Shown here in pieces: positions 1 to 21,167 of a DNA stretch of 23,236 bases. Source of the DNA: a virus. The stretch covers positions 1 through 23,236 of the IMG/VR virus record IMGVR_UViG_3300022928_000124. The stretch is one strand, 5' to 3'. A model generated the notes under the pieces. That model did not search any database. It saw only the letters and a program-made list of their open reading frames with translations, and was not told the origin of the DNA. A program made the position numbers and the translations under genes. Each line of letters begins with the position of its first letter. Positions within the stretch are counted from its first letter, which is position 1.

Positions 1-619
1 TGTCACTGTACTCTTCTTCAGGCTCATTTGCGTATTCTTCAATTTTGTCTGCATAGTTTTCATAACCTGCTAATTGTAGTATATCAGCTAGTTCTTGAAC
101 TGGAACACTTACCATTGCATCATCTTCACAACCACAGTCTTCTTCCATTTCAATATCATTTTCTTGAACCTTTGATTCTAAAACTCCACCTTCTAAATCA
201 TAAGCAACATCATTTAATTCATCCATTATTTGATTGAATGTGGTCATATCTACCTTGCTTGCAATTACATCTAAGTCACCATCATATTCGGTAAACAAGT
301 TATTAAAAGTAGGAGCATTATCATCTAGATACTCAAGAGCAGCATCACCATATTCGCCTACAAAATTATATACTTGATCATATCCCTTTTGTAATAGTTC
401 AGATGTTAATGGTGCTTTTTTTGCTTCATTCATTCTGTCTTCAATTTCTTGTCTAATCTCATCGTAGTTTTGACCTGGATACTTTTTCTCAAACTCTTCT
501 TTACCCATGCCTTCTTCTACGTCTTGGATCATATCTTTGACTGCGCCTTCTTCAACTGGTTGCTCTTGCTCCAATGAGATTATTTTATCTAAGTATTCTC
601 TCATATTGTCCATATTCAT
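1..619 (-). CDS. acidic hypothetical protein, C-terminus cut by window edge
   Basis: The reading frame is open from an ATG at 619 to the left window edge (206 residues seen, no stop), so the gene is partial at its 3' end. The start is chosen because AAGGAA lies 6 bases upstream; a second ATG two codons later is possible. The visible protein is strongly acidic, begins MNMDNMREYLDKIISLEQEQ, and contains a CGC triad around residue 163 (EEDCGCEDD), followed by a short predicted helical segment and a run of Asp/Glu. I recognise no domain. It lies 10 bases after the stop of the peptidoglycan-binding-like gene, whose stop codon abuts this gene's ribosome site, so it is probably co-transcribed and made late. 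A virion-internal or scaffold-like role is possible from position and acidity, but this is inference only. Confidence 0.75.
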   Translation of the reverse strand, partial: MNMDNMREYLDKIISLEQEQPVEEGAVKDMIQDVEEGMGKEEFEKKYPGQNYDEIRQEIEDRMNEAKKAPLTSELLQKGYDQVYNFVGEYGDAALEYLDDNAPTFNNLFTEYDGDLDVIASKVDMTTFNQIMDELNDVAYDLEGGVLESKVQENDIEMEEDCGCEDDAMVSVPVQELADILQLAGYENYADKIEEYANEPEEEYSD

Positions 620-629
620 TTTACTTTCC

Positions 630-1610
630 TTATGTGTTTGCACCAGTGATGCGTTTAATCATGTTTCTATTTGCTACTTTTGTAGTATTATCACTTTTTG
701 GTTGAGCAAGTTTAAGTGGATCTGCATTACCTTTTTTATCTGAGCCTTTAAATATGTCTCCAAAAGAATTTGCAATTCGATTTATAAAATCATCGCCAAC
801 TTTTTTCTCAGGTTGCTTTGGGCCTTGAGCCATACTATAGTTGCCCTGTGCATCTTTTTTATACATGTTAGGTGCCATAGGTAAACCTGTAAATCTATTT
901 TTATTACCAGGTCCACGTAGTTTATCAATGTCTTTATAAGGTGCTGAAGGATTTACTTTGCCTATTGTATCTGGCATATCTAATTCAGGACCTGTAGCAA
1001 ATCTTTTATCTGGGCCACCGCTCTTTGGTGTTGTCTTAGGTCTAGCAATTGGTGTTGCACCTGGTTGTCCAAATTGTTTCATTGCAGCTCTTGTCTGTGG
1101 ACCCATTATACCATCTGCATCTATTTTAGCACCTTTTGATATTAAATATTTTTGTATAGCTAGTGTTCTGTCATAATTTTTTGTATTAGCGGCAGTTGCT
1201 TTTACTTTGCCTTTTTTCATTGGCGTTTTAGATATAGTAGATCCTTGTGAAATATCACTGTCTTTAGCCGCTGGTGCTTTTGCAATTGTAGATCCTTGTG
1301 AAACATCAGGTTCTTTTCCAATACGTTTAGGAAATATTTTTTCACCTTTTTTACTAACTTTGTTGCCTAAATTATTAAGAAAGTCTATGAACGGTCTAGC
1401 ACTAGGATTTGTTTTACTAACTCTTTTAGGAAGTTGGTAGTCTTGTGGTACCAGGCCTCTTTTCTTCAAACGGTCTAACTGTAATTTAGTTGGTGTAATA
1501 TTTGTACCAGTATAATAACCTGTTTCTAAATCAATCTTTTCATTAACAGTAGATTCCTCTTCTGCTATAATATCTTTTAAAGAATCTATTGCTTTATATA
1601 AGTCATTCAT
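630..1610 (-). CDS. virion-associated candidate with peptidoglycan-binding-like domain
   Basis: A 326-residue basic, Pro/Lys/Gly-rich protein. Residues about 147-180 (YDRTLAIQKYL, then DGIMGPQTRAAMKQF) match the PG_binding_1 pattern, in which a D-G-hydrophobic-x-G-x-x-T turn precedes a helix ending in F. The flanks look disordered. Residues about 100-134 hold two 17-residue tandem copies of a DVSQGSTI-type segment. The N-terminus (MNDLYKAIDSLKDIIAE) is a short helix ending in I-A-E, the form cut by T4 gp21 prohead protease, so a processed head protein is possible. The start overlaps the stop of the preceding gene by one base (TAATG), with AAGG upstream. No lytic catalytic domain is visible, so it is probably not an endolysin by itself. 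It could be a capsid-internal or baseplate protein; the domain call is moderately sure and the location is inference. Confidence 0.8.
   Translation of the reverse strand: MNDLYKAIDSLKDIIAEEESTVNEKIDLETGYYTGTNITPTKLQLDRLKKRGLVPQDYQLPKRVSKTNPSARPFIDFLNNLGNKVSKKGEKIFPKRIGKEPDVSQGSTIAKAPAAKDSDISQGSTISKTPMKKGKVKATAANTKNYDRTLAIQKYLISKGAKIDADGIMGPQTRAAMKQFGQPGATPIARPKTTPKSGGPDKRFATGPELDMPDTIGKVNPSAPYKDIDKLRGPGNKNRFTGLPMAPNMYKKDAQGNYSMAQGPKQPEKKVGDDFINRIANSFGDIFKGSDKKGNADPLKLAQPKSDNTTKVANRNMIKRITGANT
1237..1308 (-). repeat. 51-nt imperfect direct repeat inside the PG-binding-like gene
   Basis: The 21-base string GTAGATCCTTGTGAAA(T/C)ATCA occurs at 1237-1257 and again at 1288-1308, exactly 51 bases apart with one mismatch. 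On the coding strand this gives two tandem 17-residue units with core D(V/I)SQGSTI(A/S)K. It looks like a recent in-frame duplication in a disordered linker. Confidence 0.8.
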
Positions 1611-2113
1611 TACTTTGCCTTTTCAAACTCATATTTACGGGTTTCTAATCCTTTTAGCATATTTTCATTATACTTGTCACCAAAACTATCTTCTGCTTTA
1701 ACATCTTTTGCATCTTTGTAATCTGGATCATCTAGTTTTGCACTATACTCGTCACCTTCTTCTTTTATTGCTTCTTCACGAGCAATCTCTTCTGGATGAT
1801 CACTGTTAATAACAACTAAGTGACTTGCTGGCACGCCAACTGTTTGAGTAATATATTCATATAGTTGATGAGCAGTTACTGGATATTTAAGTTCTGCGTC
1901 CATTATAAACACTTCAGCGTTGTTTAATGTTTGGAAATCCATTGGGTGTTCTTGTATAGGTGTCTTTTTAGGTTTACTAATACTTGCAACTTCATATTTT
2001 TCTAATGCAGTTTCAAGTGCATTCATTATTTCATCATCGCCTTTTTCGGCCATCTTAATGCGAAACTTATAAGTTTGTTCACTTTCTACAAGGTAACTTT
2101 TAAAACTTTTCAT
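1610..2113 (-). CDS. putative capsid-targeted internal head protein
   Basis: A 167-residue acidic protein of unknown function. Its first ten residues, MKSFKSYLVE, closely resemble the capsid-targeting sequence of T4 internal protein III (MKTYQEFIAE), which ends in the (L/I)-x-E site cut by the gp21 prohead protease; here the predicted cut is after LVE. The body (residues about 12-115) contains a well-ordered alpha/beta segment with EHPMDFQTLNNAEVFIMDAE, which I recall as conserved in marine myovirus proteins without a known role. The C-terminal 50 residues are charged and low complexity. The start at 2113 has AAGGAT 9 bases upstream and a late promoter at 2138-2145. The gene follows gp16 and is coupled by TAATG to the next gene. 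Targeting is inferred from the motif, and the function is unknown. Confidence 0.85.
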   Translation of the reverse strand: MKSFKSYLVESEQTYKFRIKMAEKGDDEIMNALETALEKYEVASISKPKKTPIQEHPMDFQTLNNAEVFIMDAELKYPVTAHQLYEYITQTVGVPASHLVVINSDHPEEIAREEAIKEEGDEYSAKLDDPDYKDAKDVKAEDSFGDKYNENMLKGLETRKYEFEKAK

Positions 2114-2137: not shown

Positions 2138-2145
2138 TATTTATT
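2138..2145 (-). promoter_or_regulatory. T4-type late promoter (AATAAATA)
   Basis: The minus strand reads GGAATAAATACAT, matching the T4 late -10 consensus TATAAATA at 7 of 8 positions. It overlaps the gp16 stop codon (GAA TAA ATA) and ends 24 bases before the next start, leaving room for a short leader with the ribosome site AAGGAT. Confidence 0.65.
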
Positions 2146-2656
2146 CCTTTTTGTGTGTATTACGTCCTAATATTTCCTGTAATAATTGTGTACGATCTAT
2201 TGCATGTCCTTGTCCATCCTCTAAATCGTCACCATTGTCTCTTGCTTGTTTAGCAAGTTTTGCATCTAATGTTGCTTTCTTAATTTGCAAATCCACCATA
2301 CGCAGTTTTTTATTAACTTTGTGTTGTTTTGCACTTAATGCAGTATCCAACATACGACTTGCATTGTTAAATATTTCTCCACTAAAACGTGCCTCTACAT
2401 TCATACCCAAGTCCATGAGATCCTTAAATGTATCTTTTGCTAAGTCTGCAATGTCATCCATTTCTTTATCACTAGAGTCAAGCTCTCGTACACTAGGTAA
2501 AGCAGCATCTATTTTATCTACATTTGCCATAGCAGTTTGTAATTCAGGAATATCGTCTGCAGTTACAGTGTCTACAGTCTTTTCACTTTCTTCTTTAGAC
2601 AAAGGCATTTCTTCGCTAACTTCAACATTAAAAAGTTCTTCTAGTTTTTTTGTCAT
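2141..2656 (-). CDS. gp16: terminase small subunit gp16
   Basis: A 171-residue protein resembling the T4-like small terminase subunit (T4 gp16 is 164 residues). This subunit recognises viral DNA and stimulates the ATPase and nuclease of the large subunit gp17 during head filling. The diagnostic core is residues about 47-125: KIDAALPSVRELDSSDKEMD, then a helix with LAKDTFKDLMDLGMNVEARF and SGEIFNNASRML. This is the central oligomerising coiled-coil region conserved in marine T4-like phages. The acidic N-terminus and charged C-terminus are variable. It follows gp4 with a late promoter over the gp4 stop. Unusually, the large subunit gene gp17 does not follow; two uncharacterised genes and a partial third do. 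Identification is confident from family memory. Confidence 0.88.
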   Translation of the reverse strand: MTKKLEELFNVEVSEEMPLSKEESEKTVDTVTADDIPELQTAMANVDKIDAALPSVRELDSSDKEMDDIADLAKDTFKDLMDLGMNVEARFSGEIFNNASRMLDTALSAKQHKVNKKLRMVDLQIKKATLDAKLAKQARDNGDDLEDGQGHAIDRTQLLQEILGRNTHKKE

Positions 2657-3506: not shown

Positions 3507-4796
3507 TTATGTTCCTGCGTCTACTAATTTGCTTAAAGGTTTACTTACAATACTACTTTTTTCACCTACAGTTCTCATATCACTAATTTTAGCTGCATTG
3601 GATTTTGTGCCTGCTCTTGGAACTTGATTTGCAAAACCTATATCATATGTGCTAGAATTTATAATGTTACTTCTATATGTTTGAATATTTTGTCCTTCAG
3701 AAAATACTATACCATTTGTAGGCACTATATCACTATTATTAGGTCTTGTACTAGTTGTATTTTCGCCTTTAAAAAAATCTATTATTCCATTCTCAATTCT
3801 CCCCACACGGTCATTAACAAGTTTTTCTGCTGCACCAGTTACTGGTACTAATATATTACTACTAGGCTTTTTGCCAGTTAATAGATTGTTAGCAAAAATA
3901 CCAATAGTGTCCTGTATGACATTTTGGGTATTAAGACGTGATTGATTAAAGATTATATCTGCATCTGTAATTGTCCCAATTACATTTCCCTGAAATAAAT
4001 CTTTAGGACGTTCACCTGTTGTTGTTCTAATAGAACCATCTATAAATGCGTTATCTTCTCCAATAGCTGCATTATCTGCACTTAAATCACTTACCTCTAC
4101 ATCATAATGTATATCACCAAACCCACGTGGCGTAATATTATTGACAAAACCTGTAGCATACTTAACCGTTTCATATGCTATTTGCATTGTGTTTTCCATT
4201 AACCCGCCGTTAGCATAAGCATGTTGATCATGACTAAAAGCAGTAATTATAGGATTTACAAGAGTATACTCACCAAATTTATGATTGTGCATACTATAGA
4301 TTTTTATGTTTTTAAAAAATCTTTTATTACCTCTTTGTAATCCCCATTGTTGTTGGGTTCTGTTTGCGTACTTATCTGAAGTTGTATAACTGTTTCCATC
4401 TAAATCATAAGTAGGATCTGCATTATAATATATGTAATATTTGTGCCATAAGTTTCTTATATTTTCTTTTGCATCATCATGAAATCGTATTGTCACTGGC
4501 TGATATTGAAAACTATGATGACTTTGTGTTTTTCTATTGTATTGATTATGGGTTTGCACATCTAGTGTATAAGAAGGCAAGTCTGCACTTTTAACAAGAA
4601 TTGGAATTTCTAACTGTTGTATGGTATCAAATAATGTAGCAGCATCTGAGGTAAACTCAAATACAACATGGAATAAGTTACTGTATTTTGGTTGTAACTC
4701 ATAGTTATTGTCTACGAAAGTTTTTGATGCGTGTTTATAATCTCTAACCGTCTTGTCAGAGGTCATTCCATTTAAAAGTGGATTAACACTAGCCAT
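3507..4796 (-). CDS. tail-tube-like baseplate protein (gp48/gp54-like)
   Basis: A 429-residue protein directly downstream of the tail tube gene. Residues about 36-220 show the tail-tube-like pattern: a beta strand NLFHVVFEFTSD, then LEIPILVKSADLPSYTLDV, NQYNRKTQSHHSFQYQPVTI, a helix NIRNLWHKYYIYYN, FFKNIKIYSMHNHKFGEYTL, and VNPIITAFSHDQHAYANGG with ENTMQIAYETVKYATG. In T4, gp48 and gp54 are gp19-related proteins that cap the baseplate hub and start tube polymerisation; the position fits that role. The C-terminal 200 residues are Asn/Thr/Ser-rich and unrecognised, making the protein longer than T4 gp54 (320) or gp48 (about 364). I cannot decide which of the two T4 proteins it matches. The start has TAGGAG 11 bases upstream and follows the gp19 stop by 16 bases. 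Confidence 0.75.
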   Translation of the reverse strand: MASVNPLLNGMTSDKTVRDYKHASKTFVDNNYELQPKYSNLFHVVFEFTSDAATLFDTIQQLEIPILVKSADLPSYTLDVQTHNQYNRKTQSHHSFQYQPVTIRFHDDAKENIRNLWHKYYIYYNADPTYDLDGNSYTTSDKYANRTQQQWGLQRGNKRFFKNIKIYSMHNHKFGEYTLVNPIITAFSHDQHAYANGGLMENTMQIAYETVKYATGFVNNITPRGFGDIHYDVEVSDLSADNAAIGEDNAFIDGSIRTTTGERPKDLFQGNVIGTITDADIIFNQSRLNTQNVIQDTIGIFANNLLTGKKPSSNILVPVTGAAEKLVNDRVGRIENGIIDFFKGENTTSTRPNNSDIVPTNGIVFSEGQNIQTYRSNIINSSTYDIGFANQVPRAGTKSNAAKISDMRTVGEKSSIVSKPLSKLVDAGT

Positions 4797-4812: not shown

Positions 4813-5430
4813 TTAGCCAGTTACAACCTGTCCAACTGTTCTTGCTACACTTGAACCAATACCATCACCTAATGGTGTTTGAACTGCATTGTCAAATCTT
4901 ACACTAAGAGTAATCATTGCTGGTTCTTGTGATGCATAGTCTAAATCATTGTAGTTTACATTGGCTATAAAACAACCATATAGTTCCCAAGTTTCAAGAA
5001 CGTTAGGAGTACTAGCACCGTTACCACCATCTAATATTTCAAAACGTGTAATAAACTTATAATCAATACCTGAAGCTGCACTTGATTGTTCCATAAAATC
5101 AAATTGCTTCTGTACTTGCTCGCCTACTAGTTTTGAAACTGAACCGTTTACATCATCACGTAAGTTTACTGTGATTTGTTCCCAAGTATGTTTACCTACT
5201 AAGTATACTTTACTGTTGTAAATATCAATTATGTTCTCTTCAAATGTAACACTAGGACGAGTTATATTCATTATTTGTTTTGTCATTTCAGTTCTAGGTG
5301 TGCTTACACCAAAGTTTTCAAAACTCGCTCTAAAACGATATTTTAGTTTTGGCATTAACAAGCCTTGGCTTGCCGCACTCTGGTCACCGTCAATAGGTAC
5401 TGTAAACTTTGTTAATGATGAAACTGACAT
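4813..5430 (-). CDS. gp19: tail tube protein gp19
   Basis: A 205-residue homologue of T4 gp19 (163 residues), whose hexamer rings stack to form the inner tube through which DNA passes. Seen in order: PKLKYRFRASFENFG, MTKQIMNITRPSVTFEENII, VYLVGKHTWEQITVNLRDD, then ETWELYGCFIANVNYNDLDY and EPAMITLSVRFDNAVQ. This is the two-sheet tube fold pattern found in marine T4-like phages. The start is supported by AGGAG 9 bases upstream and by a late promoter at 5461-5468. A hairpin terminator separates it from gp18 upstream, so tube protein is probably expressed from its own transcript, as expected for an abundant protein. The extra C-terminal residues (QTPLGDGIGSSVARTVGQVV) are Gly/Ser-rich. Confidence 0.92.
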   Translation of the reverse strand: MSVSSLTKFTVPIDGDQSAASQGLLMPKLKYRFRASFENFGVSTPRTEMTKQIMNITRPSVTFEENIIDIYNSKVYLVGKHTWEQITVNLRDDVNGSVSKLVGEQVQKQFDFMEQSSAASGIDYKFITRFEILDGGNGASTPNVLETWELYGCFIANVNYNDLDYASQEPAMITLSVRFDNAVQTPLGDGIGSSVARTVGQVVTG

Positions 5431-5460
5431 TTCATTCTGCTCCTAATCTAATTATAAAAG

Positions 5461-5468
5461 TATTTATC
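5461..5468 (-). promoter_or_regulatory. T4-type late promoter for gp19 (GATAAATA)
   Basis: The minus strand reads CTGATAAATACTTTTAT, 7 of 8 matches to TATAAATA, 30 bases upstream of the gp19 ATG. It lies just downstream of the gp18 terminator, so it restarts transcription for gp19. Confidence 0.7.
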
Positions 5469-5481
5469 AGTTTTTTGTCAT

Positions 5482-5507
5482 AAAAAATGGGGGTATAAAC
5501 CCCCATT
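5482..5507 (-). terminator. intrinsic terminator after gp18
   Basis: A perfect 8-bp inverted repeat, AATGGGGG at 5486-5493 and CCCCCATT at 5500-5507, encloses a 6-base loop. On the minus strand the stem runs straight into TTTTTT, the classic rho-independent form. It begins about 18 bases after the gp18 stop and precedes the gp19 late promoter. A T run on the plus side (5511-5517) could give weaker bidirectional activity. Confidence 0.85.
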
Positions 5508-5525
5508 GTATTTTTTTAATTTTTG

Positions 5526-8500
5526 TTAAACTGTGCTTGAAGCTGCTACGTTTCCACTTGCAATTTCACCAGTATTCTTTAATCTTATTGGAATAAAGAT
5601 AAACTCTGCTGATTTTACAGGTTCAATAGCAACGTCTACATATAATTCATTACGATCAATTCTATCTGATGTATTATTTGTGTCATCACATACAACCAAA
5701 TAATCATAAACACCACGCTTTGCAACTAAATCATTAAGTGTTTGCTCAATCTGTTGCTTTATTTCGTCTCTTGTTATTTTATCATTTGGTTCAAATACAA
5801 AGCCTGTAGCAATTGTCTGTAATTGTCGTCTTAAATATCCTGTTAATCTTGATACGTTAATACGATCTAATGCACTTGTAGATACAGCTCTTGTTTTATT
5901 TCCATAGTTTAGTATTCCGCTACCTTGGAAAAATGCTATTGGATTAACTCTATTTGTGTATAGTGTATCTCTTACACTTTCACGAATATTGTCGTTTATA
6001 AATGCACCTGTTGATGCACTAATATATCCAATACTTGCAACATTGTCTACTAGTCCACGCCTTGTGCCTGCAGGAGCAAACCAAGGGAAACTAATATCGT
6101 CACTTCTTGCAATTGTTCTTAATATTGCATGACTTGCTGGAACAACAATTGTGTTATTATTTAAATCGTTTGTTGTTGCACTAGGATAAAACACTGCCAA
6201 ATATGGATCACTTGTTACTAATCCATCTTCATTATTATCTGAAGCTGCTGCAGCATTTGTTGCCCAGTTTTCTATAGCAGTACTTGTTGCAGCTAATCTC
6301 ATTGGGCTATCGCCTACAACAAAAGCAGTTTGACGTCTATCATTATTTAAACTTACCATGTTGCTTATAAGCTCTGGGTATCCAGGAGCCGCAATTACAT
6401 TAAATGTTCTTGCATCTTCACGTAATTCTGCACTAGCATCTAATGCACTCTTCATTGCATTTACAACTACTGTTCTTACTGCCTTACGTCCAAATGTACT
6501 TCCGCTACTTGTTACCCATGCATCCTTTTCAGTAGGAAGTGTAGGATATAATGTAGTGCTACTAAAGTTTGTTCTACTAAAGTAATCTGATTTAAATTGT
6601 TTTACACCATATGTGCTACGTCTTGTATTGAATAGTAGTATCCCACGTGGATAAACAGTAGGGTCAGGTCTATCAATATCTAAGTAGTCACTTGTCAGTA
6701 AAGTCTTTGTGGTTGGAATAGTGCCAGTGACAACATCTGTTGTGCCGTCACCCATAAAACGTGCATCACCAAAAATTATTCCATTTTCAGTTGTAGTATC
6801 TGTCTTATCTATAGCAACCCATTTTGCTTCACCGTCTACAGTCTGACGTCTGTAAAGTGCTGGATAATTTTCTAAGTCACTTGTGTCAATCCATAAATCA
6901 CCATTTACTAGCACACTATCATCACTTTGTAGTGTAGGAGCAGTAGTACTAAAAATTACACCGTTTGGATCTGTATCACCTAATGCAAATCCTCTTGTAT
7001 CTGTAATATTTTGGTATCCTTGCCATGTTGTTCCATTATGTATCATAATGTCTGCTTCAAATCCGCCTGCATACCAATATGTATCTGCATCTGGATTTGC
7101 ACTTGGAGCACTTGTACTTGCAGTATATGTAGGAGCAATCCAGTTACTTACTATTAAATCACTGTTATTACCTGCTCTGACTTGTCCTGTTGTAATACTT
7201 GTAGTAATACCTGCATCTGTTAAAGGAGTACCTGATGTATCTTTAAGAATTATCACTCCGCCTAAACTGTGAGAAATTACCAAGTATCCACCTGTGTCTA
7301 CACTTGCACTTACATTACTTACATTTGCGGCATTTATATCACTTGCCATATCTGCTAATGATGTACCACTTAATGTTACTGTAACTGCAGTGCTAAGTGT
7401 TGTACTGTTTGCTGAACTAGCCTGTATTGTAAACTGTTCACTTGCAGTTAATGGAGTAGCACTATTTACTAACCCAGTAATACTTGTTGCGCCTGTACTA
7501 TATCTTTGAAACAATTTATATGTAACAGTATCGTTTTCTGTAACGTCATATTGTACATAATAACTTCCTGTACTAATATCTTTACCACCTGTAGTATCTA
7601 GATTCTTAAGTGCAGTTTGGTCATTTTCATATGCTGGTGCAGTACTTGAAACAAATGCTGCAGTTGCAGTATTATATGCACTTACGTCTGCTAAAAATCC
7701 TAAGTTACTTGAAGTAGTTTTTACCCAAACACTGCCTGTTGGACGTGGGGTAGTATCTGTTGATTTCCATGCTGGAACTGTATAGTGTGGATCTTGTGCA
7801 ATTAATGGTCTTGCATAAGTTCCTGCAGTTAAACCTGCATCAGTAAGAATTGTTCCACTTGCATTTGCTAGTACAATTTTACCATCTGCAACACTGTCTA
7901 CACCTACTGCAGTACTGTTAGCAAAAATTTCAATTTTATTACTGTGTACTGCTGCAGTAACGCCTGTAATACTTGCATTGTTTATACTTGTTGCTAATTC
8001 AGCAACTGTGCTACCAACCATTGTTACAGTTGTGCCGTTAATTGTTATACTATCACCGTTTGTAAACCTTGGACTTGCAATTGTTCCTGCAACAGTAGCA
8101 TGAGCTATTTGCCAACTTGCACTTCCTACTAGTACCCAAGCATTGCTTCTGTTTTTATAATAAACAGGATTACTTGTATTTGTAGCAACTAGTGCATAAT
8201 CACCTATAGCACCAATTGAAGTTTTTGGAACACCAGTATCTAAGTCAGTTGTGCTTGTAATTACTGTAGGAATTTTATTTGTAAATGCACCTGTACTCTG
8301 GTTCCATTCGAAAATTCCCCAACGTGTATCTGCACTTACGTCCCACCATACTGTATTATTTGTAGGATTTCCTAATGGACGATTAGTACTACTTGCTAGT
8401 TGAGCTAGATCTATATCTGCTCTTGTTACGTATGCTCTGTTGCTTACGCCTAGTAAACTGTAAGCTGCCATTAATCCATATTCATTTAACTCGTATCCAT

Positions 8501-8753
8501 TTATAGGAGTACCTGCAGTTGTGTTATAAAATGTTGGATTTCCAAATGTAGCAGTAAGTTCTCTTTGACTTCCAATTAAGTAAGTCTTGCCTGCATTTGC
8601 TGGAGTAGTTCCTGCTGCAGTGCCTGTACCTGTTCCACTTGTTTTATTCTCTGCAGTTGCAATCACTATTGCTGCTACTGTGCCTGCTGTTGATGGTGTG
8701 TAATTACTTTCGTCTATTACTGTAACTTCTACACCTGGTGATATAAGTGCCAT
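5526..8753 (-). CDS. gp18: tail sheath protein gp18, unusually long
   Basis: A 1075-residue contractile sheath protein. T4 gp18 has 659 residues; the extra length lies in the middle. N-terminus: MALISPGVEVTVIDESNYTP and TYLIGSQRELTATFGNP, the standard sheath start. C-terminal conserved core, residues about 690-1060: YPRGILLFNTRRSTYGVKQF, DARTFNVIAAPGYPE, PASHAILRTIARSDDISFPW, FAPAGTRRGLVDN, ALDRINVSRL and VEPVKSAEF-type final strands, which form the interlocking sheath domain. Residues about 128-650 are variable: two copies of a module with sTxV-type strands and 'LATSINNA'/'MASDINAA' helices, alternating with W-containing beta segments. These probably form surface protrusions on the tail. The start has AAGGA 8 bases upstream and a late promoter at 8790-8797; an intrinsic terminator follows the stop. 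The identity is secure from the ends. Confidence 0.95.
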   Translation of the reverse strand: MALISPGVEVTVIDESNYTPSTAGTVAAIVIATAENKTSGTGTGTAAGTTPANAGKTYLIGSQRELTATFGNPTFYNTTAGTPINGYELNEYGLMAAYSLLGVSNRAYVTRADIDLAQLASSTNRPLGNPTNNTVWWDVSADTRWGIFEWNQSTGAFTNKIPTVITSTTDLDTGVPKTSIGAIGDYALVATNTSNPVYYKNRSNAWVLVGSASWQIAHATVAGTIASPRFTNGDSITINGTTVTMVGSTVAELATSINNASITGVTAAVHSNKIEIFANSTAVGVDSVADGKIVLANASGTILTDAGLTAGTYARPLIAQDPHYTVPAWKSTDTTPRPTGSVWVKTTSSNLGFLADVSAYNTATAAFVSSTAPAYENDQTALKNLDTTGGKDISTGSYYVQYDVTENDTVTYKLFQRYSTGATSITGLVNSATPLTASEQFTIQASSANSTTLSTAVTVTLSGTSLADMASDINAANVSNVSASVDTGGYLVISHSLGGVIILKDTSGTPLTDAGITTSITTGQVRAGNNSDLIVSNWIAPTYTASTSAPSANPDADTYWYAGGFEADIMIHNGTTWQGYQNITDTRGFALGDTDPNGVIFSTTAPTLQSDDSVLVNGDLWIDTSDLENYPALYRRQTVDGEAKWVAIDKTDTTTENGIIFGDARFMGDGTTDVVTGTIPTTKTLLTSDYLDIDRPDPTVYPRGILLFNTRRSTYGVKQFKSDYFSRTNFSSTTLYPTLPTEKDAWVTSSGSTFGRKAVRTVVVNAMKSALDASAELREDARTFNVIAAPGYPELISNMVSLNNDRRQTAFVVGDSPMRLAATSTAIENWATNAAAASDNNEDGLVTSDPYLAVFYPSATTNDLNNNTIVVPASHAILRTIARSDDISFPWFAPAGTRRGLVDNVASIGYISASTGAFINDNIRESVRDTLYTNRVNPIAFFQGSGILNYGNKTRAVSTSALDRINVSRLTGYLRRQLQTIATGFVFEPNDKITRDEIKQQIEQTLNDLVAKRGVYDYLVVCDDTNNTSDRIDRNELYVDVAIEPVKSAEFIFIPIRLKNTGEIASGNVAASSTV
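7068..8072 (-). repeat. duplicated module in the gp18 insertion
   Basis: Protein-level repeat: residues about 228-345 (7719-8072) and 436-562 (7068-7448) share an order of elements. First come strands ending in T-V-T-(M/L); then a helix, VAELATSINNA or LADMASDINAA; then (G)V(T/S)A(A/S)V and a strand; then I-V-L-A-N-A-S-G-T-I-L-T-D-A-G or I-I-L-K-D-T-S-G-T-P-L-T-D-A-G; then a W-containing segment. The 'LA.sINaa...gvsAsv' pattern resembles the flagellin hook IN motif (PF07196); that resemblance is from memory. Confidence 0.7.
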
Positions 8754-8858: not shown

Positions 8859-9188
8859 ATGAGAGCTATTTGTGAACAATGCGGGCAACGTCCTAAAGCT
8901 ATAAATTATATAAGAAATGATAAAAAGTATTATAGAAAGAAATGCGAGCAGTGTTTAAAATTACACAAACCTGTTAAACCATTGTGGGTAGATAGTGGAT
9001 ATAAAGTAAAAAGAAAATGTGAGGCTTGCGGATTTAAACCAAGTATGAGAAGTCAAGTTACTGTTTTTTATATAGACGGTAACTTAAAAAATGTTAACAA
9101 CCGTAATCTGAAAACGGTATGCCTGAACTGTAATCAGGAGTTGATAAAGTTTGGTTGGAATCGAGGTGACTTAACACCTGATGTTTAA
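8859..9188 (+). CDS. small double zinc-ribbon, degenerate HNH-like protein
   Basis: A 109-residue basic protein with four CxxC pairs (C5/C8, C29/C32, C54/C57, C88/C91), enough for two four-cysteine zinc sites. The second half resembles the HNH endonuclease core: CEACGFKP, then YIDGNLKNVNNRNLKTVC and LNCN. Where HNH enzymes usually have (D)H before I-D-G-N, this protein has F-Y, and the final C-H is C-N, so nuclease activity is doubtful; a DNA- or RNA-binding role is possible. I recall relatives in marine T4-like phages, annotated as hypothetical. It is the only plus-strand gene in the left half, divergent from gp18, and its last 95 bases overlap the 3' end of the kinase gene on the other strand. 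The start lacks a clear ribosome site. Confidence 0.7.
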   Translation: MRAICEQCGQRPKAINYIRNDKKYYRKKCEQCLKLHKPVKPLWVDSGYKVKRKCEACGFKPSMRSQVTVFYIDGNLKNVNNRNLKTVCLNCNQELIKFGWNRGDLTPDV

Positions 9189-9783
9189 GATCTTCCATTG
9201 ACCCATTGTTATCAATTGTAACTGTGAACTCCTCATCACGTCTTGCCCATTTCCATTCACTTGCATGTACTTCAGGAAAAACAACCTTCATAGGATTATT
9301 CGACTCTTCACTTGAATTTGATTCATTACAATTAATTGCAGTTTCCCACCATAGTGGAACATTACCACGTCTAACTTGCCAAACTTGGCCACCGATATCA
9401 CGTATCATATTTTGTTCATTTGAAAATCTTACATCTGGTATGACATAGTCGCCAGGATTTTCTACAAGTTCTTTTTTTAGTAAACTAACCCACACACCAT
9501 CGTAGAAACCATCTCGCATACAGTCTGTGCCAAACTCTTGTAGCACTATTCTTGGAGTAATTGTTCTGCCTGTTTCAGCAGTCCAAAATTCATCAGGTTG
9601 TTCACGCCAGGCTCTGCTTTCATCAGTATCACCTTCAAGCATAGCTCTATCCCAACCAAATACAGTAGCAACACCATCTTTTAGTTTATCTGCAAAACTA
9701 ACTTTTTTGTATCCTTGTTCTACAAGTATGTCTGCAACTGTGCCTTTGCCACTACCAATTAGTCCACATATTCCTATAATCAT
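9094..9783 (-). CDS. deoxynucleoside monophosphate kinase (T4 gp1-like)
   Basis: A 229-residue P-loop kinase. MIIGICGLIGSGKGTVADIL contains the Walker A loop GLIGSGKGT at residues 7-15; F30-A-D lies in the usual substrate-side position; RIVLQEFGTDCMR and GDYVIPDVRFSNEQNMIRDI match the T4-like dNMP kinase family (T4 gp1, 241 residues). It would phosphorylate dNMPs to dNDPs for phage DNA synthesis. The start is fixed because the P-loop begins six residues in; the first 32 bases overlap the end of the radical SAM gene in another frame. The C-terminal tail, about 30 residues (LDSNQTLSTPDYSSG...), lies in the region overlapped by the plus-strand ORF and may be non-conserved. This nucleotide-metabolism gene sits inside a neck-protein operon, so it may be made late. 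Confidence 0.88.
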   Translation of the reverse strand: MIIGICGLIGSGKGTVADILVEQGYKKVSFADKLKDGVATVFGWDRAMLEGDTDESRAWREQPDEFWTAETGRTITPRIVLQEFGTDCMRDGFYDGVWVSLLKKELVENPGDYVIPDVRFSNEQNMIRDIGGQVWQVRRGNVPLWWETAINCNESNSSEESNNPMKVVFPEVHASEWKWARRDEEFTVTIDNNGSMEDLKHQVLSHLDSNQTLSTPDYSSGIPFSDYGC

Positions 9784-10852
9784 ATTTCTGTTTCCGTATT
9801 ACATCAAGTTTATCTGTAAATGCCTTAAACTTTATGTTATCTCTATAATCTGTCTTAAGTTGAATTACTAGTGTTTTTAAAACTTTAATTGCATTATCAT
9901 AATCGTCAACTCTTTTGCTATTACTTAACTTTACAATACTACAATTTATTTTATCTGTCAACTGCTTACGAAATTCTTTTGGTAATATACACGGATGTAA
10001 ATGTTGTGGGAAATCACATATATACATGTCTGCACCATAAGCATCTTGTTCATTTTCAATTATGTAATCTACTAAACTTTCAATATGAGGCACACTATAT
10101 GCACTTAATACAGTGTTAAACATAACACTACATTTTAGTGACAATATCTTTTTTATATTTTGATCTATTGTATCCCAATTTGTACCATACCTAATATATT
10201 CTGCAGGGTGTCCAACTGCATCTATACTAATAGTAATATGTAGGTTTTTAAATTTTTTTATACAATTTAAAAAGATATCATTTATCATACTTGCATTCGT
10301 TGTAATTAATAAATTTGTTTCTGCAGAACAAGTATCTAAAATCTCATAAAATTGCTGAATATAGGTTGGTTCTCCTCCAGTAAACATTAACTTTTTTACT
10401 TTGGGAACTATTTTTTTTATATCTTGGGATATTTGTTCTGTATGCTCAATATAATTCTTACTTAAAGAATATCCATAATATTCTTTTAAATTATGTTTAT
10501 TGTTTTCTTTTGAAATTCTGCTACTAAAAATAGGCTCGCAACTTCTACATGCAAAATTACATTTATTACTCAGCCTTAAATCTACATATTCTACACTTGG
10601 AGTAACAGGTATTTTATATTCTTGTAAGCTGCGTTGTCGCAAACTTAATTGATTATTTTCTTCAAGTTGTTTACAATTACTACATCCTTTTGGCCATATT
10701 CCATTTTCAAGTTCTGAGCGTACTGTTGCTAGTTCTTTACTATTCCAGTATTGTGTAGGTGTAAGGTTGCTATTTTCTGTAAAATTACAACAAGGTTTCG
10801 TGAAATTTTGACCAATAAACTGGTGCATATAGGGCAATGGGCATTTAATCAA
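9752..10852 (-). CDS. radical SAM protein, SPASM/twitch-like
   Basis: A 366-residue enzyme. The radical SAM signature is C98-N-F-A-C102-R-S-C105 (CxxxCxxC), followed by FTGGEPTY (GGE motif, residues 157-164), TTNAS, and ISIDA (208-212), all in the expected order for the partial TIM barrel. It would bind a 4Fe-4S cluster and cleave S-adenosylmethionine to a radical. The N-terminus carries further cysteines (C4, C21-C22, C57, C60) that could hold an auxiliary cluster. The start is a TTG at 10852: the first ATG would remove C4 and the P-x-P-x-M-H segment, which I recall as conserved. A weak AGG lies upstream. It follows gp13 by a stop plus one codon, in the same frame, and overlaps the kinase by 32 bases. 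No precursor peptide is visible; the substrate is unknown. Confidence 0.88.
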   Translation of the reverse strand: MIKCPLPYMHQFIGQNFTKPCCNFTENSNLTPTQYWNSKELATVRSELENGIWPKGCSNCKQLEENNQLSLRQRSLQEYKIPVTPSVEYVDLRLSNKCNFACRSCEPIFSSRISKENNKHNLKEYYGYSLSKNYIEHTEQISQDIKKIVPKVKKLMFTGGEPTYIQQFYEILDTCSAETNLLITTNASMINDIFLNCIKKFKNLHITISIDAVGHPAEYIRYGTNWDTIDQNIKKILSLKCSVMFNTVLSAYSVPHIESLVDYIIENEQDAYGADMYICDFPQHLHPCILPKEFRKQLTDKINCSIVKLSNSKRVDDYDNAIKVLKTLVIQLKTDYRDNIKFKAFTDKLDVIRKQKYDYRNMWTNW

Positions 10853-10855
10853 TTT

Positions 10856-11611
10856 TTAACCTATTATAAATGAAAGTGGATCAGAACCATCTACATAATT
10901 ACGTAGTTCTTCATCCAATTTATCAAGTTCAACTTGTGCTTCTGCTTTTAATGCATCACCATTCAAACTTGTGCCACCTTGAGGTCCAGCAATAGTACTA
11001 AACTTACTACGTGCTTCACCTAGTGTGTATTTTGCTAGTGCAAGTGCATAGTCTTGTATCCAAGGACCTGAATGTCTATCTTCAAGTAGTCTACTTTCTG
11101 GACGTAAGTTATATGTCCAAAGAACAATTTGTTCACCGTCTGCACTAAACTTACGAAGTAGTGTAATCTTTTTAGTTACAGGATTAAATTCGAAATTAAT
11201 AAATCCGCCAAATAACCTTGCACTTAATTCTTGGTACTGATAGTACATTTCATATGTAGCCATACCACCTATTCTACCACTTTGCAGCAAGTAAGTGTTC
11301 TGGAATGCAGCCTCAAATGGTTCAAACTGTGTGCCAGTATCACTACTGCCACTTCCTACACTACGTCTAAATGCTTGACGTACTTCCTCTATCTCATCAG
11401 GTAATGTATATTCTTGTTGTTCTTTGACAACACTTAAAAATACATAAGAACTTTCATATGCATTTTGACTACGTTGTCTGAAACGTTTTATAGATTTGTC
11501 TATTACATTATCATAATGATCTGGATCAAGTTCTACATCTACCATCCCGTCGCCTAAACGAAAACGGATGTAGTCTATTGTGTCTGCTCTTAAACTTGCT
11601 AGTGTCGCCAT
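10856..11611 (-). CDS. gp13: neck protein gp13
   Basis: A 251-residue homologue of T4 gp13 (309 residues), which with gp14 seals the portal and connects head to tail. The N-terminus (DTIDYIRFRLGDGMVDVELD, then DHYDNVIDKSIKRFRQR) matches the gp13 start, and the C-terminus (WIQDYALALAKYTLGEARSK, then LNGDALKAEAQVELDKLDEE and a final hydrophobic G) closely follows the T4 gp13 ending (remembered as [20 protein letters not shown] ... FGILVG). The middle (VFLSVVKEQQEYTLPDEIEE, VRQAFRR, YQELSARLFGGFINFEF) is a marine-type variant. A late promoter lies at 11634-11641, AAGGAT 10 bases upstream. Its partner gp14 lies 3.3 kb away on the other strand, which is unusual. Confidence is high for the neck family and slightly lower for the exact number. 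Confidence 0.82.
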   Translation of the reverse strand: MATLASLRADTIDYIRFRLGDGMVDVELDPDHYDNVIDKSIKRFRQRSQNAYESSYVFLSVVKEQQEYTLPDEIEEVRQAFRRSVGSGSSDTGTQFEPFEAAFQNTYLLQSGRIGGMATYEMYYQYQELSARLFGGFINFEFNPVTKKITLLRKFSADGEQIVLWTYNLRPESRLLEDRHSGPWIQDYALALAKYTLGEARSKFSTIAGPQGGTSLNGDALKAEAQVELDKLDEELRNYVDGSDPLSFIIG

Positions 11612-18262: not shown

Positions 18263-18992
18263 CTAAACTTGCAAAACTGTAATACTGGTTATATGTTATT
18301 TCTTTAACATTAGGACACCAGTTATATTCTTCCGGCATAAGTCCAGCATCTTTAGCAACGTAAAAAAATTCCACATCATTGTATGTTAAAAATATTTTTG
18401 TGCAATCAGATATAAATTTGCTGTTTGCACCTTCCGTATTAACTGCACCATAAGCATCATGCGTTTCAAAATATATATTATCTTCAGGCGTATTATATGT
18501 TGTCATTCCTATCATATATATTTTCTTATGCCCGTCAGCACACGCTAATCTTAGTGCCAAACTTCCTGTGTTTCCTGTGAACAATTGAGGATACAGATAA
18601 AAATGACCTTGGTGTTGTATTATATTTTTTACGTTACTGTAAACTATATTATCTTTTGTATATTCGGATAGTGCAATATCAGCACATATTTTTTTGTTAA
18701 TACATATTAAAAACGTTGGTGAAAAATCTTTGTATAATAGGTTGCAACCATATGTTTGTCCTACACTTTGAGCTCCATACTCGCCACCAGTTTGTCCCGT
18801 TAGTAAATTAAGATCAAAACCTTGTCTACTAGTGCTATTTCCTATGACATGAGCAATACCATTATGTGTATCATTGATAACAGTTTTTTCAACCCAAATC
18901 ATACTATTTGGATCGTTTCTGTTTTTCCAACTTACATTATGAGATACTGTTTCACCAGTGTAATCTGCAGTATAAAATTTACCTGCAGGCAT
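18246..18992 (-). CDS. DUF115/MptE-like Rossmann protein, putative glycosyltransferase-related
   Basis: A 248-residue protein. The central part has a strand-loop A-H-V-I-G-N-S-T-S-R (residues 47-56), then YGCNLLYKDFSPTFLICINK, a helix, and GSLALRLACADGHKKIYMIG. This G-N-x-x-S-R, then C-N...D..P.(F/Y)L(I/V) layout resembles the MptE/DUF115 family and sialyltransferase-like Rossmann folds, where G-x-G-P-S is usual; here G is S. The N-terminus (MPAGKFYTADYTGETVSHNV) I recall from a recurrent uncharacterised family in marine phages beside fibre genes. Its start overlaps the fibre stop by one base (TAATG), so the two are made together. A role in fibre or surface-sugar modification is plausible but unproven. 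Its stop lies in a palindrome. Confidence 0.75.
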   Translation of the reverse strand: MPAGKFYTADYTGETVSHNVSWKNRNDPNSMIWVEKTVINDTHNGIAHVIGNSTSRQGFDLNLLTGQTGGEYGAQSVGQTYGCNLLYKDFSPTFLICINKKICADIALSEYTKDNIVYSNVKNIIQHQGHFYLYPQLFTGNTGSLALRLACADGHKKIYMIGMTTYNTPEDNIYFETHDAYGAVNTEGANSKFISDCTKIFLTYNDVEFFYVAKDAGLMPEEYNWCPNVKEITYNQYYSFASLGAIAR

Positions 18993-21142
18993 TATATTCT
19001 GCCTACAACAACTTCTATTACGTCTGTACCTGCACCTGTTTTATTTTCTAATGCTTTGCCTATTACACTACCAATATAAGGATTACTTTCATCACGCCAT
19101 GCCATTGCATGTCCAGGTGTATCACTAGCAACCATTAAATCACCTTTGCGTATTTCACCAATAACTTTACACGGAACACGTCCTAGTAGTGCCACAGTAG
19201 CACCTTGACCTTCACTGTTCATTAAATATGCAGGATCAGTACTTACAATACCAGCAATACGTTTATCATACTTGTTTGTGCAGATTGTAACTTCTTCCTC
19301 GCCGCCAAAAACTAAGACAGTACCAGCATCATAGTCTGCATCACTGGTATATTTTTCTGCCAAGTCAGCATATTTTGCAGAAGTTGCAGTACCTGAAAAG
19401 TTTGTTGTACTTAATGTATTACTACTTGGATTATATGTTAGTCCAGTATCACTATTTGGACGCTGGTTTCCACTGGTACCACCTGTAAAAATTATATAAT
19501 GTGTAGCGTTTGTGCTATTATCAGCTGCAACATTAAAATTTGTTGCATTAGTAGCCGTACCACTCAATGTAGCCGTAACTGTACCAGCACTAAAATTTCC
19601 ACTGCCATCACGAGCAACAATAGTACTACCTGTATTTGAATTTGTGGCATTACTTGTAATTGTAACACTGCCACTTGAACCGCCGCCCGATAATCCTGTT
19701 CCACTTACACTAACATTTGTAATATCGCCAGTGTTTGTAGTAAAACCAGAATCGTTGTTAAAGATACTCAATCCAATTTCGTTTGCAGCTTTACGTCTAT
19801 CTGCACTTGCATCCAGTACTATAAACTCATCAGTGCCTGTCATCGCAGCAGTCATGTCGGTAAGTTCTGATAAATCCACATTCAGTGTAACAGACCCACT
19901 TGATCCACCGCCACTTAATCCAGTACCAGCAGTTACACCAGTAATATCACCTGTGTTAGTAGTAAAGCCTGCGTCATTACTAAAAATGCTTAATCCAATT
20001 TCGTTTGCCGCCTTACGTCTATCAGCACCTGCATCTAGTACTATAAATTCGTCAGTACCTGTCATTGTAGCAGTCATATCAGTTAGTTCACTTAGGTCAA
20101 CTGAAAGTGTGTGAGAAATACCTTCTCCTGATGTTGCACCGCTTGATGCTATACCAGTACCGCCAGTAATTGTGCCAACATAGTTGCCTGTAGTATCTGT
20201 ACCTAGTGCAATACTGTTTGCAGCAATAGTGGCTGATATACTTACATTGCCACTTCCATCAAATGAACCACTTGTTCCAGTTACATCACCTGTAAGACTA
20301 ATTGTTCTACCAGTTGCCAATGCAGTTGCGGTATCGGCATTTCCTGTAACATCACCTGTAACATCACCTGTAACATCACCAACAAATGCACCTTGAGAAA
20401 GTGTAATACCTGCGGCGGCAAAAGTGCTGTGTGTTGTTCCATCTACTGTTGCAGTTATAGTACCTGTGCCACTATCTGCAATTACCCAAGTTGTGTTACC
20501 TTCAGATAAACTATTTGAACTTAGACTAGATAACTCGCCATCAACATATGCCTTTGTAGCTGCATCTTGAGCACTTGTTGGATCACCCATACCTGTAATC
20601 TTATTAGTACCCATAGCAATAGTTGCACTATTAATAGTTGGGCTAGTTAATGTTTTATTTGTAAGTGTTTGTGTGCCTGTTAGTGTAGTAACTGTGCTAT
20701 CAATAGCAAGAGTTACAGTGTTGCTTGTTGCACTTGAATCTATTCCAGTTCCGCCTGCAATCGTAAGCGTTTCACTATCAAGATCAATAGCAATCGTACC
20801 ACTATCTGAAGTAACATCTAAGTCCTGTGCAGTCACTTGAGAATCAACATATGCTTTAATAGATTGTTGAGTTGCAAGTTGAGTTGCACTGTCAGAAGAC
20901 ATATCATCTTCGTCTAAAACTGCCGTTCCTGAAACACCTGTGTTTAATACTGCACTAGTTAATGTTTTATTAGTAAGTGTCTGCGTTGCAGTATTTTGTG
21001 TTAATTCAAAACCACCAGCAGTTGTGCCATCATGTACTCTAGCAGTATCAATAGTACTATCAATACTGATTTCACCTGCCGCACCTGTAAATGCATTGTT
21101 CTGGGCGGTTGTACCTCTTCTAAATTGTAACTGTGTTGGCAT
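18992..21142 (-). CDS. tail-fibre-like structural protein with Mtd_N-like start and chaperone-like end
   Basis: A 716-residue Thr/Ser/Gly-rich fibre protein. N-terminus QLQFRRGTTAQNNAFTGAAG, then VHDGTTAGG, resembles the Mtd_N module (fibre attachment) found at the start of many marine phage fibres. Next come two QTLTNKTLTS units, a DAATKAYVD repeat, VTGDVTGDVTGN tandem turns, and two 74-residue repeats (350-497). The C-terminal 129 residues (588-716: YADLAEKYTSDADYDAGTVL, then IAGIVSTDPAYLMNSEGQG, ALLGRVPCKVIGEIRKGDLM) form a conserved-looking domain resembling intramolecular chaperone/Peptidase_G2-type ends; the family match is from memory and the catalytic residues are not confirmed. A late promoter at 21160-21167 and AAAGGAT precede the ATG. 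It probably binds the host surface or links to another fibre. Confidence 0.85.
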   Translation of the reverse strand: MPTQLQFRRGTTAQNNAFTGAAGEISIDSTIDTARVHDGTTAGGFELTQNTATQTLTNKTLTSAVLNTGVSGTAVLDEDDMSSDSATQLATQQSIKAYVDSQVTAQDLDVTSDSGTIAIDLDSETLTIAGGTGIDSSATSNTVTLAIDSTVTTLTGTQTLTNKTLTSPTINSATIAMGTNKITGMGDPTSAQDAATKAYVDGELSSLSSNSLSEGNTTWVIADSGTGTITATVDGTTHSTFAAAGITLSQGAFVGDVTGDVTGDVTGNADTATALATGRTISLTGDVTGTSGSFDGSGNVSISATIAANSIALGTDTTGNYVGTITGGTGIASSGATSGEGISHTLSVDLSELTDMTATMTGTDEFIVLDAGADRRKAANEIGLSIFSNDAGFTTNTGDITGVTAGTGLSGGGSSGSVTLNVDLSELTDMTAAMTGTDEFIVLDASADRRKAANEIGLSIFNNDSGFTTNTGDITNVSVSGTGLSGGGSSGSVTITSNATNSNTGSTIVARDGSGNFSAGTVTATLSGTATNATNFNVAADNSTNATHYIIFTGGTSGNQRPNSDTGLTYNPSSNTLSTTNFSGTATSAKYADLAEKYTSDADYDAGTVLVFGGEEEVTICTNKYDKRIAGIVSTDPAYLMNSEGQGATVALLGRVPCKVIGEIRKGDLMVASDTPGHAMAWRDESNPYIGSVIGKALENKTGAGTDVIEVVVGRI
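19658..20095 (-). repeat. two tandem 222-nt coding repeats in the fibre gene
   Basis: Residues about 350-423 and 424-495 repeat with few changes: LSELTDMTA(T/A)MTGTDEFI, VLDA(G/S)ADRRKAANEIGLS, IF(S/N)ND(A/S)GFTTNTGDIT, then GTGLSGGGSSGSVT. The two LSEL codons start at 20095 and 19873, 222 bases apart. The units differ at many third positions, so the duplication is not very recent. Confidence 0.88.
20343..20378 (-). repeat. 12-nt microsatellite, three perfect copies
   Basis: CCTGTAACATCA occurs three times without mismatch, encoding consecutive VTGD units in the fibre. Gain or loss of a copy keeps the frame and changes the shaft by four residues. Confidence 0.9.
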
Positions 21143-21159
21143 TTTTTAATCCTTTGCTA

Positions 21160-21167
21160 TATTTATT
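21160..21167 (-). promoter_or_regulatory. T4-type late promoter for the fibre gene (AATAAATA)
   Basis: The minus strand reads ACATAATAAATATAGC, 7 of 8 matches to TATAAATA. It overlaps the stop codon of the upstream fibre gene (TAA at 21166-21168) and lies 17 bases before the next ATG. Confidence 0.68.

Follow-up and report, generated by a model that had tools for sequence, protein, structure and literature searches.

A predicted capsid-targeting leader of the T4 type on a conserved phage protein, and its neighbour with exchangeable cell-wall-binding modules

The capsid-targeting leader of bacteriophage T4, worked out in that phage, is the classic route for loading proteins into a phage head, and the T4-type prohead protease gp21 acts inside the prohead. 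In the T4 record both internal proteins IPIII and IPII begin MKTYQEFIAE|A. Residues 4 and 7 of the IPIII leader serve targeting, residues 8 and 10 serve processing, and D at position 10 blocks clipping while targeting is retained (PMC9026906). The phages 121Q and phAPEC6, which encode homologues of the protein described below, have an inner body (PMC5646251, PMC7247149), and the proteins of phAPEC6 show no similarity to the inner-body proteins of phiKZ (PMC7247149).

The window, by which we mean the whole stretch of 23,236 nucleotides (23 kb) analysed here, is a fragment of a T4-related phage with late genes lying mostly on the minus strand. It is probably of marine origin, as the seawater phage 2.275.O of Vibrio is among its relatives. 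The features on which our analysis is based are the following.

10856-11611, minus strand: neck protein
9094-9783, minus strand: dNMP-kinase-like protein, named from position and appearance
5526-8753, minus strand: tail sheath
4813-5430, minus strand: tail tube
3507-4796, minus strand: second tube-like protein
between the second tube-like and gp4-like genes, minus strand: gene of 123 aa
2692-3132, minus strand: gp4-like head-completion protein with a TnsA-like nuclease fold, from PHROGs and Pfam searches
2141-2656, minus strand: coiled-coil gene of 171 aa upstream of A, PHROG 16202 (unknown function)
1610-2113, minus strand: gene A, 167 aa, MKSFKSYLVESEQTYKF..., precursor of 19.3 kDa, pI 4.8, PHROG 14802
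2084..2113, minus strand: capsid-targeting-like leader of A, MKSFKSYLVE, residues 1-10, predicted cut after E10 and before S11
1805..2071, minus strand: folded domain of A, residues 15-103, ferredoxin-like order (strand-helix-strand(s)-strand-helix-strand) in an AlphaFold2 model, block pLDDT mostly 63-83
630-1610, minus strand: gene B, 326 aa, MNDLYKAIDSLKDIIAEEEST..., pI 9.9, mostly disordered
1560..1610, minus strand: leader of B, MNDLYKAIDSLKDIIAE, residues 1-17, a predicted helix ending I-A-E
1059..1175, minus strand: peptidoglycan-binding-like module of B, residues 146-184, ...ADGIMGPQTRAAMKQF..., PF01471/PF09374 at E ~0.001, under the cut-off
633..671, minus strand: conserved C-terminal tail of B, NRNMIKRITGANT, nearly the same in the LysM-type B of L020, L021 and L022
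2..625, minus strand: gene C, cut by the end of the window, complete in L009 (9495-10298)

The stop codon of A and the start codon of B have base 1610 in common. The gene upstream of A had been taken for gp16, an identification that we could not uphold: the 171-aa gene matches only PHROG 16202, and neither a Pfam terminase model nor the PHROGs terminase small subunit. Between the gp4-like and coiled-coil genes of L084 lies a homing-endonuclease-like ORF (861-1442), judged by eye.

The first-pass annotation had described the start of A as nearly the T4 IPIII targeting peptide with an L-x-E protease site, and this description stands, as MKSFKSYLVE|S agrees with MKTYQEFIAE|A at all four functional positions (F4 and Y7, aromatic/hydrophobic; L8, aliphatic; E10). 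At least 186 stretches in IMG/VR carry closer relatives of A, and the best 80, which were read, form the clade of the window. Among 70 distinct A genes of this clade both L8 and E10 are present in every one, with synonymous codons in use (GAA 49 times and GAG 21 times for E10, several Leu codons for L8); position 4 is F or L, position 7 is Y or F, there is free variation at positions 5, 6 and 9, and a small residue prevails at position 11 (S in 59, N in 5 and A in 3 of the 70). That L8 and E10 are invariant is by itself nothing exceptional, given that 59 of the 167 columns of the clade alignment are invariant. Taken at the level of sequence, these data support a leader of A that is T4-like in its targeting positions and under purifying selection in the clade.

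It had also been proposed to look for other starts of this kind, and the search singled out A. A strict form of the leader pattern gave one match each in 2.275.O (512 ORFs), 121Q (611 ORFs), G001 and G002 (495 ORFs together) and G005 (140 ORFs), always A in these five related genomes or contigs, with a chance expectation of 0.035-0.05 per ~500-600 ORFs by residue resampling; since the pattern was written after A and some homologues had been seen, the single matches speak for uniqueness and conservation and are not a blind prediction. A looser pattern (hydrophobic residues at 4, 7 and 8, with E10) picked out 5 ORFs in 2.275.O and 4 in 121Q. A and the gp22 scaffold are among them in each genome, and the 2 or 3 ORFs per genome besides these two are near the chance expectation of 1.3-2.0.

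The suggestion that A might be an undescribed protein has to be withdrawn, as it belongs to PHROG 14802 (E 2.2e-11 over residues 1-150, and 9e-10 without the leader), and several giant phages have members of this family annotated as 'virion structural protein'. Homologues were found by tblastn in Vibrio phage 2.275.O, the PA5oct group, GAP32/CBB, the Erwinia/Serratia BF group, 121Q/PBECO4, Atu_ph07 and Phosso, and weakly in RaK2/K64-1. In 2.275.O, PA5oct, GAP32 and 121Q the sheath gene is followed by the tubes, the gp4-like gene, the coiled-coil gene and A in this order, in part with inserted genes; Atu_ph07 and Phosso have ribonucleotide reductase and other genes between gp4 and A. The PHROG 14802 proteins of RaK2, 121Q, GAP32 and PA5oct are homologous to A over most of its length and share its gene order in most cases, but they are longer (178-255 aa, against 167 aa in the clade of the window), and many giant phages have lost the E10 that the clade always keeps. 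No homologues of A were found in bacterial and archaeal genomes, nor in scans of viral contigs with the 2.275.O and PA5oct homologues as queries; a distant search with alignment A2 gave no result, the alignment being too diverged. The A homologue of RaK2, F403_gp488 (L250 2929-3549), has an annotated start that seems to lie 24 codons too early.

The residue at position 10 is what varies in this larger family. E10 was nearly invariant in our first alignment of 15 sequences and turned out to be often lost once further giant phages were added: among 15 giant-phage sequences, 6 have E at position 10, 5 have D, 3 have A and one has S, and their 10 distinct leaders have E in 4 cases, D in 3, A in 2 and S in 1. 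All 15 have a hydrophobic or aromatic residue at each of positions 4, 7 and 8. Thus the hydrophobic positions of targeting type are general among the giant phages and the clipping residue is not, and since E10 is missing from 6 of the 10 distinct leaders, clipping is not essential across the whole family. E10 is kept in 121Q, CBB and 2.275.O, where residue 11 is K, L and S, respectively; RaK2, XaC1 and PA5oct have D or A at position 10. The A leader of PA5oct has no E at position 10, yet the capsid protein of the same phage keeps a site of the FLVE|N type.

Presence of the family in virions, which had been expected for both A and B, is documented for homologues of A. CBB_210 was detected in CBB virions by mass spectrometry, its 13 unique peptides covering 60.5% of the protein (PMC5259590), and the PA5oct homologue EST35_0202 is marked ESI-MS/MS in its record. 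For phAPEC6, the mass spectrometry table lists gp270c at 16.20 kDa (4 peptides, 41.1% coverage) beside neighbours of 25.07, 28.76 and 40.42 kDa (PMC7247149). The 121Q genes that precede A have masses of exactly 25.07, 28.76 and 40.42 kDa, and 121Q_557 counted from Met38 has 16.20 kDa. From these masses and the gene order we infer that gp270c is very probably the counterpart of A in phAPEC6, annotated from a start that lies too far downstream, probably at Met38.

The AlphaFold2 model of A, made from 30 clade sequences (mean pLDDT 66), has low confidence over residues 1-11 and helices after residue 103, and it places the leader outside the predicted domain, in a predicted flexible state and not packed on it. 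In a Foldseek search against the PDB the model had no match at E <= 0.001; the best matches in the viral library are unnamed relatives, with Ip7 at rank 17. HPPK and ribosomal protein S6 were also among the Foldseek matches and were set aside as functional hints, the ferredoxin-like fold being common and none reaching E <= 0.001. The internal protein Ip7 deserves a separate word. By hhalign A resembles it with P 0.0011 when the leader is included and 0.26 without its 10 residues; the match to PHROG 2667 (Ip7), present in 6 of 15 members of the A family, is likewise lost, so that the similarity speaks for the leader and not for common descent, and A was rejected as a demonstrated Ip7 homologue.

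In comparison with the T4-type internal proteins (IPI-IPIII, Ip7) A has a leader of ten residues with the same functional positions (4 and 7 for targeting, 8 and 10 for cleavage), which the leader of B does not have, and a cut predicted to be of gp21 type. The rest of the protein departs from that class: the T4 internal proteins are variable and basic, and their mature forms are accessory, whereas A is an acidic protein that is conserved and for the most part syntenic. The prohead core proteins of T4 (gp67, gp68, gp22) offer another comparison, and gp22 of 2.275.O and 121Q starts similarly, with an LxE site. However, genes of gp67, gp21 and gp22 type are separate from A and adjoin gp23 in G005, 121Q and 2.275.O; a reading of A as T4 gp67 or gp22 was dropped on account of this location.

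Protease and capsid genes are absent from the 23 kb record of the window itself; a gp21-type protease is present in G005 (L260, 117 kb), a relative with the gene order of the window that carries A together with portal-, gp67-, gp21- (E 5e-29), gp22- and gp23-type genes. Its predicted gp23 junction, KKYLSE|AAST (predicted mature mass 37.1 kDa), resembles its A leader, KTYLME|AQKT, and is the most direct tie between leader and protease site within one genome, both cuts being predictions. In the contigs G001-G004 gp21, and in G001-G002 gp23, were not found, these contigs being fragments. For the capsid protein of 121Q the sequence gives 42.2 kDa and the gel 37 kDa (PMC5646251); cleavage at LTE43|S would leave 37.2 kDa. 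Two unrelated ORFs of G005 on the minus strand (2-967 and 5062-5733) begin MAKLFADYLKE|A and MFEFLKEELTE|A and are candidates for protease-site leaders; neither has a clear PHROGs family, and the MAKLFADYLKE ORF has no tblastn match in phages.

In 2.275.O and 121Q taken together, half of the A-cluster genes (7 of 14) have a site of the type [LI]xE[AS] at residues 3-24, as do 7 of the 11 genes that make up the gp67-21-22-23 module; elsewhere the count is 35 among 1098 ORFs. The Fisher p values, 2e-7 for the cluster and 2e-8 for the module, are too small, as the two genomes are related and some sequences had been seen beforehand. When blocks of seven genes are ranked, the A cluster and the core module share first place in both genomes, in 2.275.O with one further region. 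No gene of the A cluster has such a site at residues 61-82, and a single one of the 7 in each genome has it at the C-terminus. The same test repeated in PA5oct gave no enrichment.

We propose, at somewhat better than even probability, that A is a conserved head protein that enters the prohead by means of its leader and, in the clade of the window, is clipped after E10. Residues 1-10 would act as a capsid-targeting leader of T4 type whose hydrophobic positions 4 and 7 dock A onto the prohead core, a gp21-type prohead protease would cut after E10, and the mature protein of ~18.1 kDa would begin at S11 and hold the ferredoxin-like domain. Alternatively, the N-terminus of A could be a permanent docking helix with a hydrophobic stripe at 4, 7 and 8 that is never removed, the LxE match being partly fortuitous, which we regard as rather unlikely. 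The hydrophobic positions kept in all giant phages beside a residue 10 that is often D, A or S fit such a helix, as does the T4 leader with D at position 10, in which targeting goes on without clipping (PMC9026906); indeed, the residue-10 pattern would look the same under a targeting leader with optional clipping and under a permanent docking helix. Against the helix speak the constancy of E10 in 70 clade genes despite codon change, the mostly small residue at position 11, as at the capsid junction, and the predicted flexibility of a leader that is not packed on the domain.

Another reading assigns A and its neighbours to the neck, the connector or the tail, presence in a virion not being the same as presence inside the head. 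The cluster does sit between tail-tube, head-completion and terminase genes, and the mass spectrometry studies report virion presence without localisation, but we consider this reading improbable, as N-terminal sites of protease type are equally dense in the A cluster and the prohead core module of two genomes, and T4-type gp21 works inside the prohead. A wider form of the proposal, to which we give little credence, would make A and its cluster leader-guided head contents throughout the broad range of T4-related large phages, including the inner body of the 121Q type, with B as an exchangeable cargo that binds the cell wall and is packaged and delivered along with the DNA. Returning to the narrower proposal of clade-specific clipping and leader-guided entry, injection of A would be an open guess, and any function given to A or B after assembly is likewise our surmise.

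Neither the leader type nor the A family is new; what we add is the joining of the two, the variation of residue 10, and B with its leader and swappable peptidoglycan-binding modules. A T4-type leader on a protein conserved from this clade to giant phages of 350-490 kb would allow head contents to be predicted from sequence, and it would also give candidate components of the inner body of 121Q type. The variation of residue 10 among relatives amounts to a natural experiment that tells targeting and clipping apart. Annotated starts downstream of the leader, as probably in phAPEC6 gp270c, would conceal it from mass spectrometry searches.

We propose B as a second protein, this one accessory, in which its own conserved leader and a basic disordered chain would present a small peptidoglycan-binding module, and as a candidate head cargo. 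The first-pass annotation held that B, like A, has a capsid-targeting-like leader, here a short helix ending I-A-E. A helix is indeed predicted over residues 2-18, with low confidence; the leader, however, is of another type, MxDLYKAIxxLxxI..., which is not IPIII-like and usually ends [ILV]-x-E, so that the resemblance to the IPIII leader holds for A and not for B. In 17 proteins at the B position M1, D3 and L4 are invariant and L11 and I14 nearly so, with a mean column identity of 28%. The peptidoglycan-binding-like domain that had been assigned to B falls under the Pfam cut-off in the window (19.6 against 23 bits); a relative in L028 passes it (24.5 against 23), and others have a strong LysM module in its place (E down to 4e-13). 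This module is the sole well-predicted stretch of B (pLDDT ~80), in a body that is otherwise basic and predicted disordered, and no catalytic domain was detected in B. The gene is missing from many relatives, where C directly follows A; tblastn of B against phage records found nothing, and no B homologue was seen in the virion data examined here. An 86-aa ORF in L025 (10050-10310) and L028 (7032-7292) has the same MRDLLESLD start as the B of its own contig and an unrelated body.

From its sequence B looks like a conserved leader joined to exchangeable cargo. Being basic, variable and accessory, it fits the variable cargo of T4 internal proteins better than A does, and its location in the head would be a guess. 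Independently of how A is read, B could instead be a tail- or lysis-associated cell-wall-binding protein whose leader docks to a part of the tail. We put the chance of this a little short of even, and head cargo on one side and tail or lysis roles on the other are about equally open. LysM modules occur in phage tail proteins, and the peptidoglycan-binding or LysM modules of B with no detected catalytic domain would suit such a role. What argues for head cargo instead is the base shared with the head-type gene A, the accessory, basic and disordered character of B, the usual [ILV]-x-E end of its leader, and the occurrence of the MRDLLESLD start on an unrelated protein.

Gene C is acidic (pI 4.05), has an LAGY motif and ends with LYKSYKDFLEAEE. 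In L009, where A is 100% identical, the rest of C is followed by a 141-aa gene and then by a large-terminase-like gene. With hhalign, the C-terminal part of C gives a profile match to virion proteins of giant phages, among them 121Q_560/GAP32_207, at E 2.6e-5 and a probability of 75%. Motifs of the LAG[YIVQ] type and C-terminal ends like LYKSYKDF or LQEKYKKF recur in the acidic proteins of the cluster, in C (L009 9495-10298) and in its giant-phage counterparts, and some gp22 homologues have LAGI or LAGL at their end. Two relatives, L064 (6637-7059) and L067, have a Cu/Zn superoxide dismutase gene (PF00080, E 2e-46) close behind the A-C cluster on its downstream side.

Some further ORFs deserve mention. 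Those with motifs of CxxxCxxC type at 9752-10852 of the window and at 15362-16423 of L009, which lie among the late structural genes, are radical-SAM-like by eye. Near the sheath gene and opposite to the late genes, the window has a Cys-rich ORF of 109 aa (8859-9188, plus strand), possibly an HNH-type or zinc protein, and an ORF similar in look and place occurs in G005 (65963-66304). Two long ORFs at 18992-23103 of the window contain repeated GDVTGNADTATALAT-like stretches and resemble repetitive fibre proteins.
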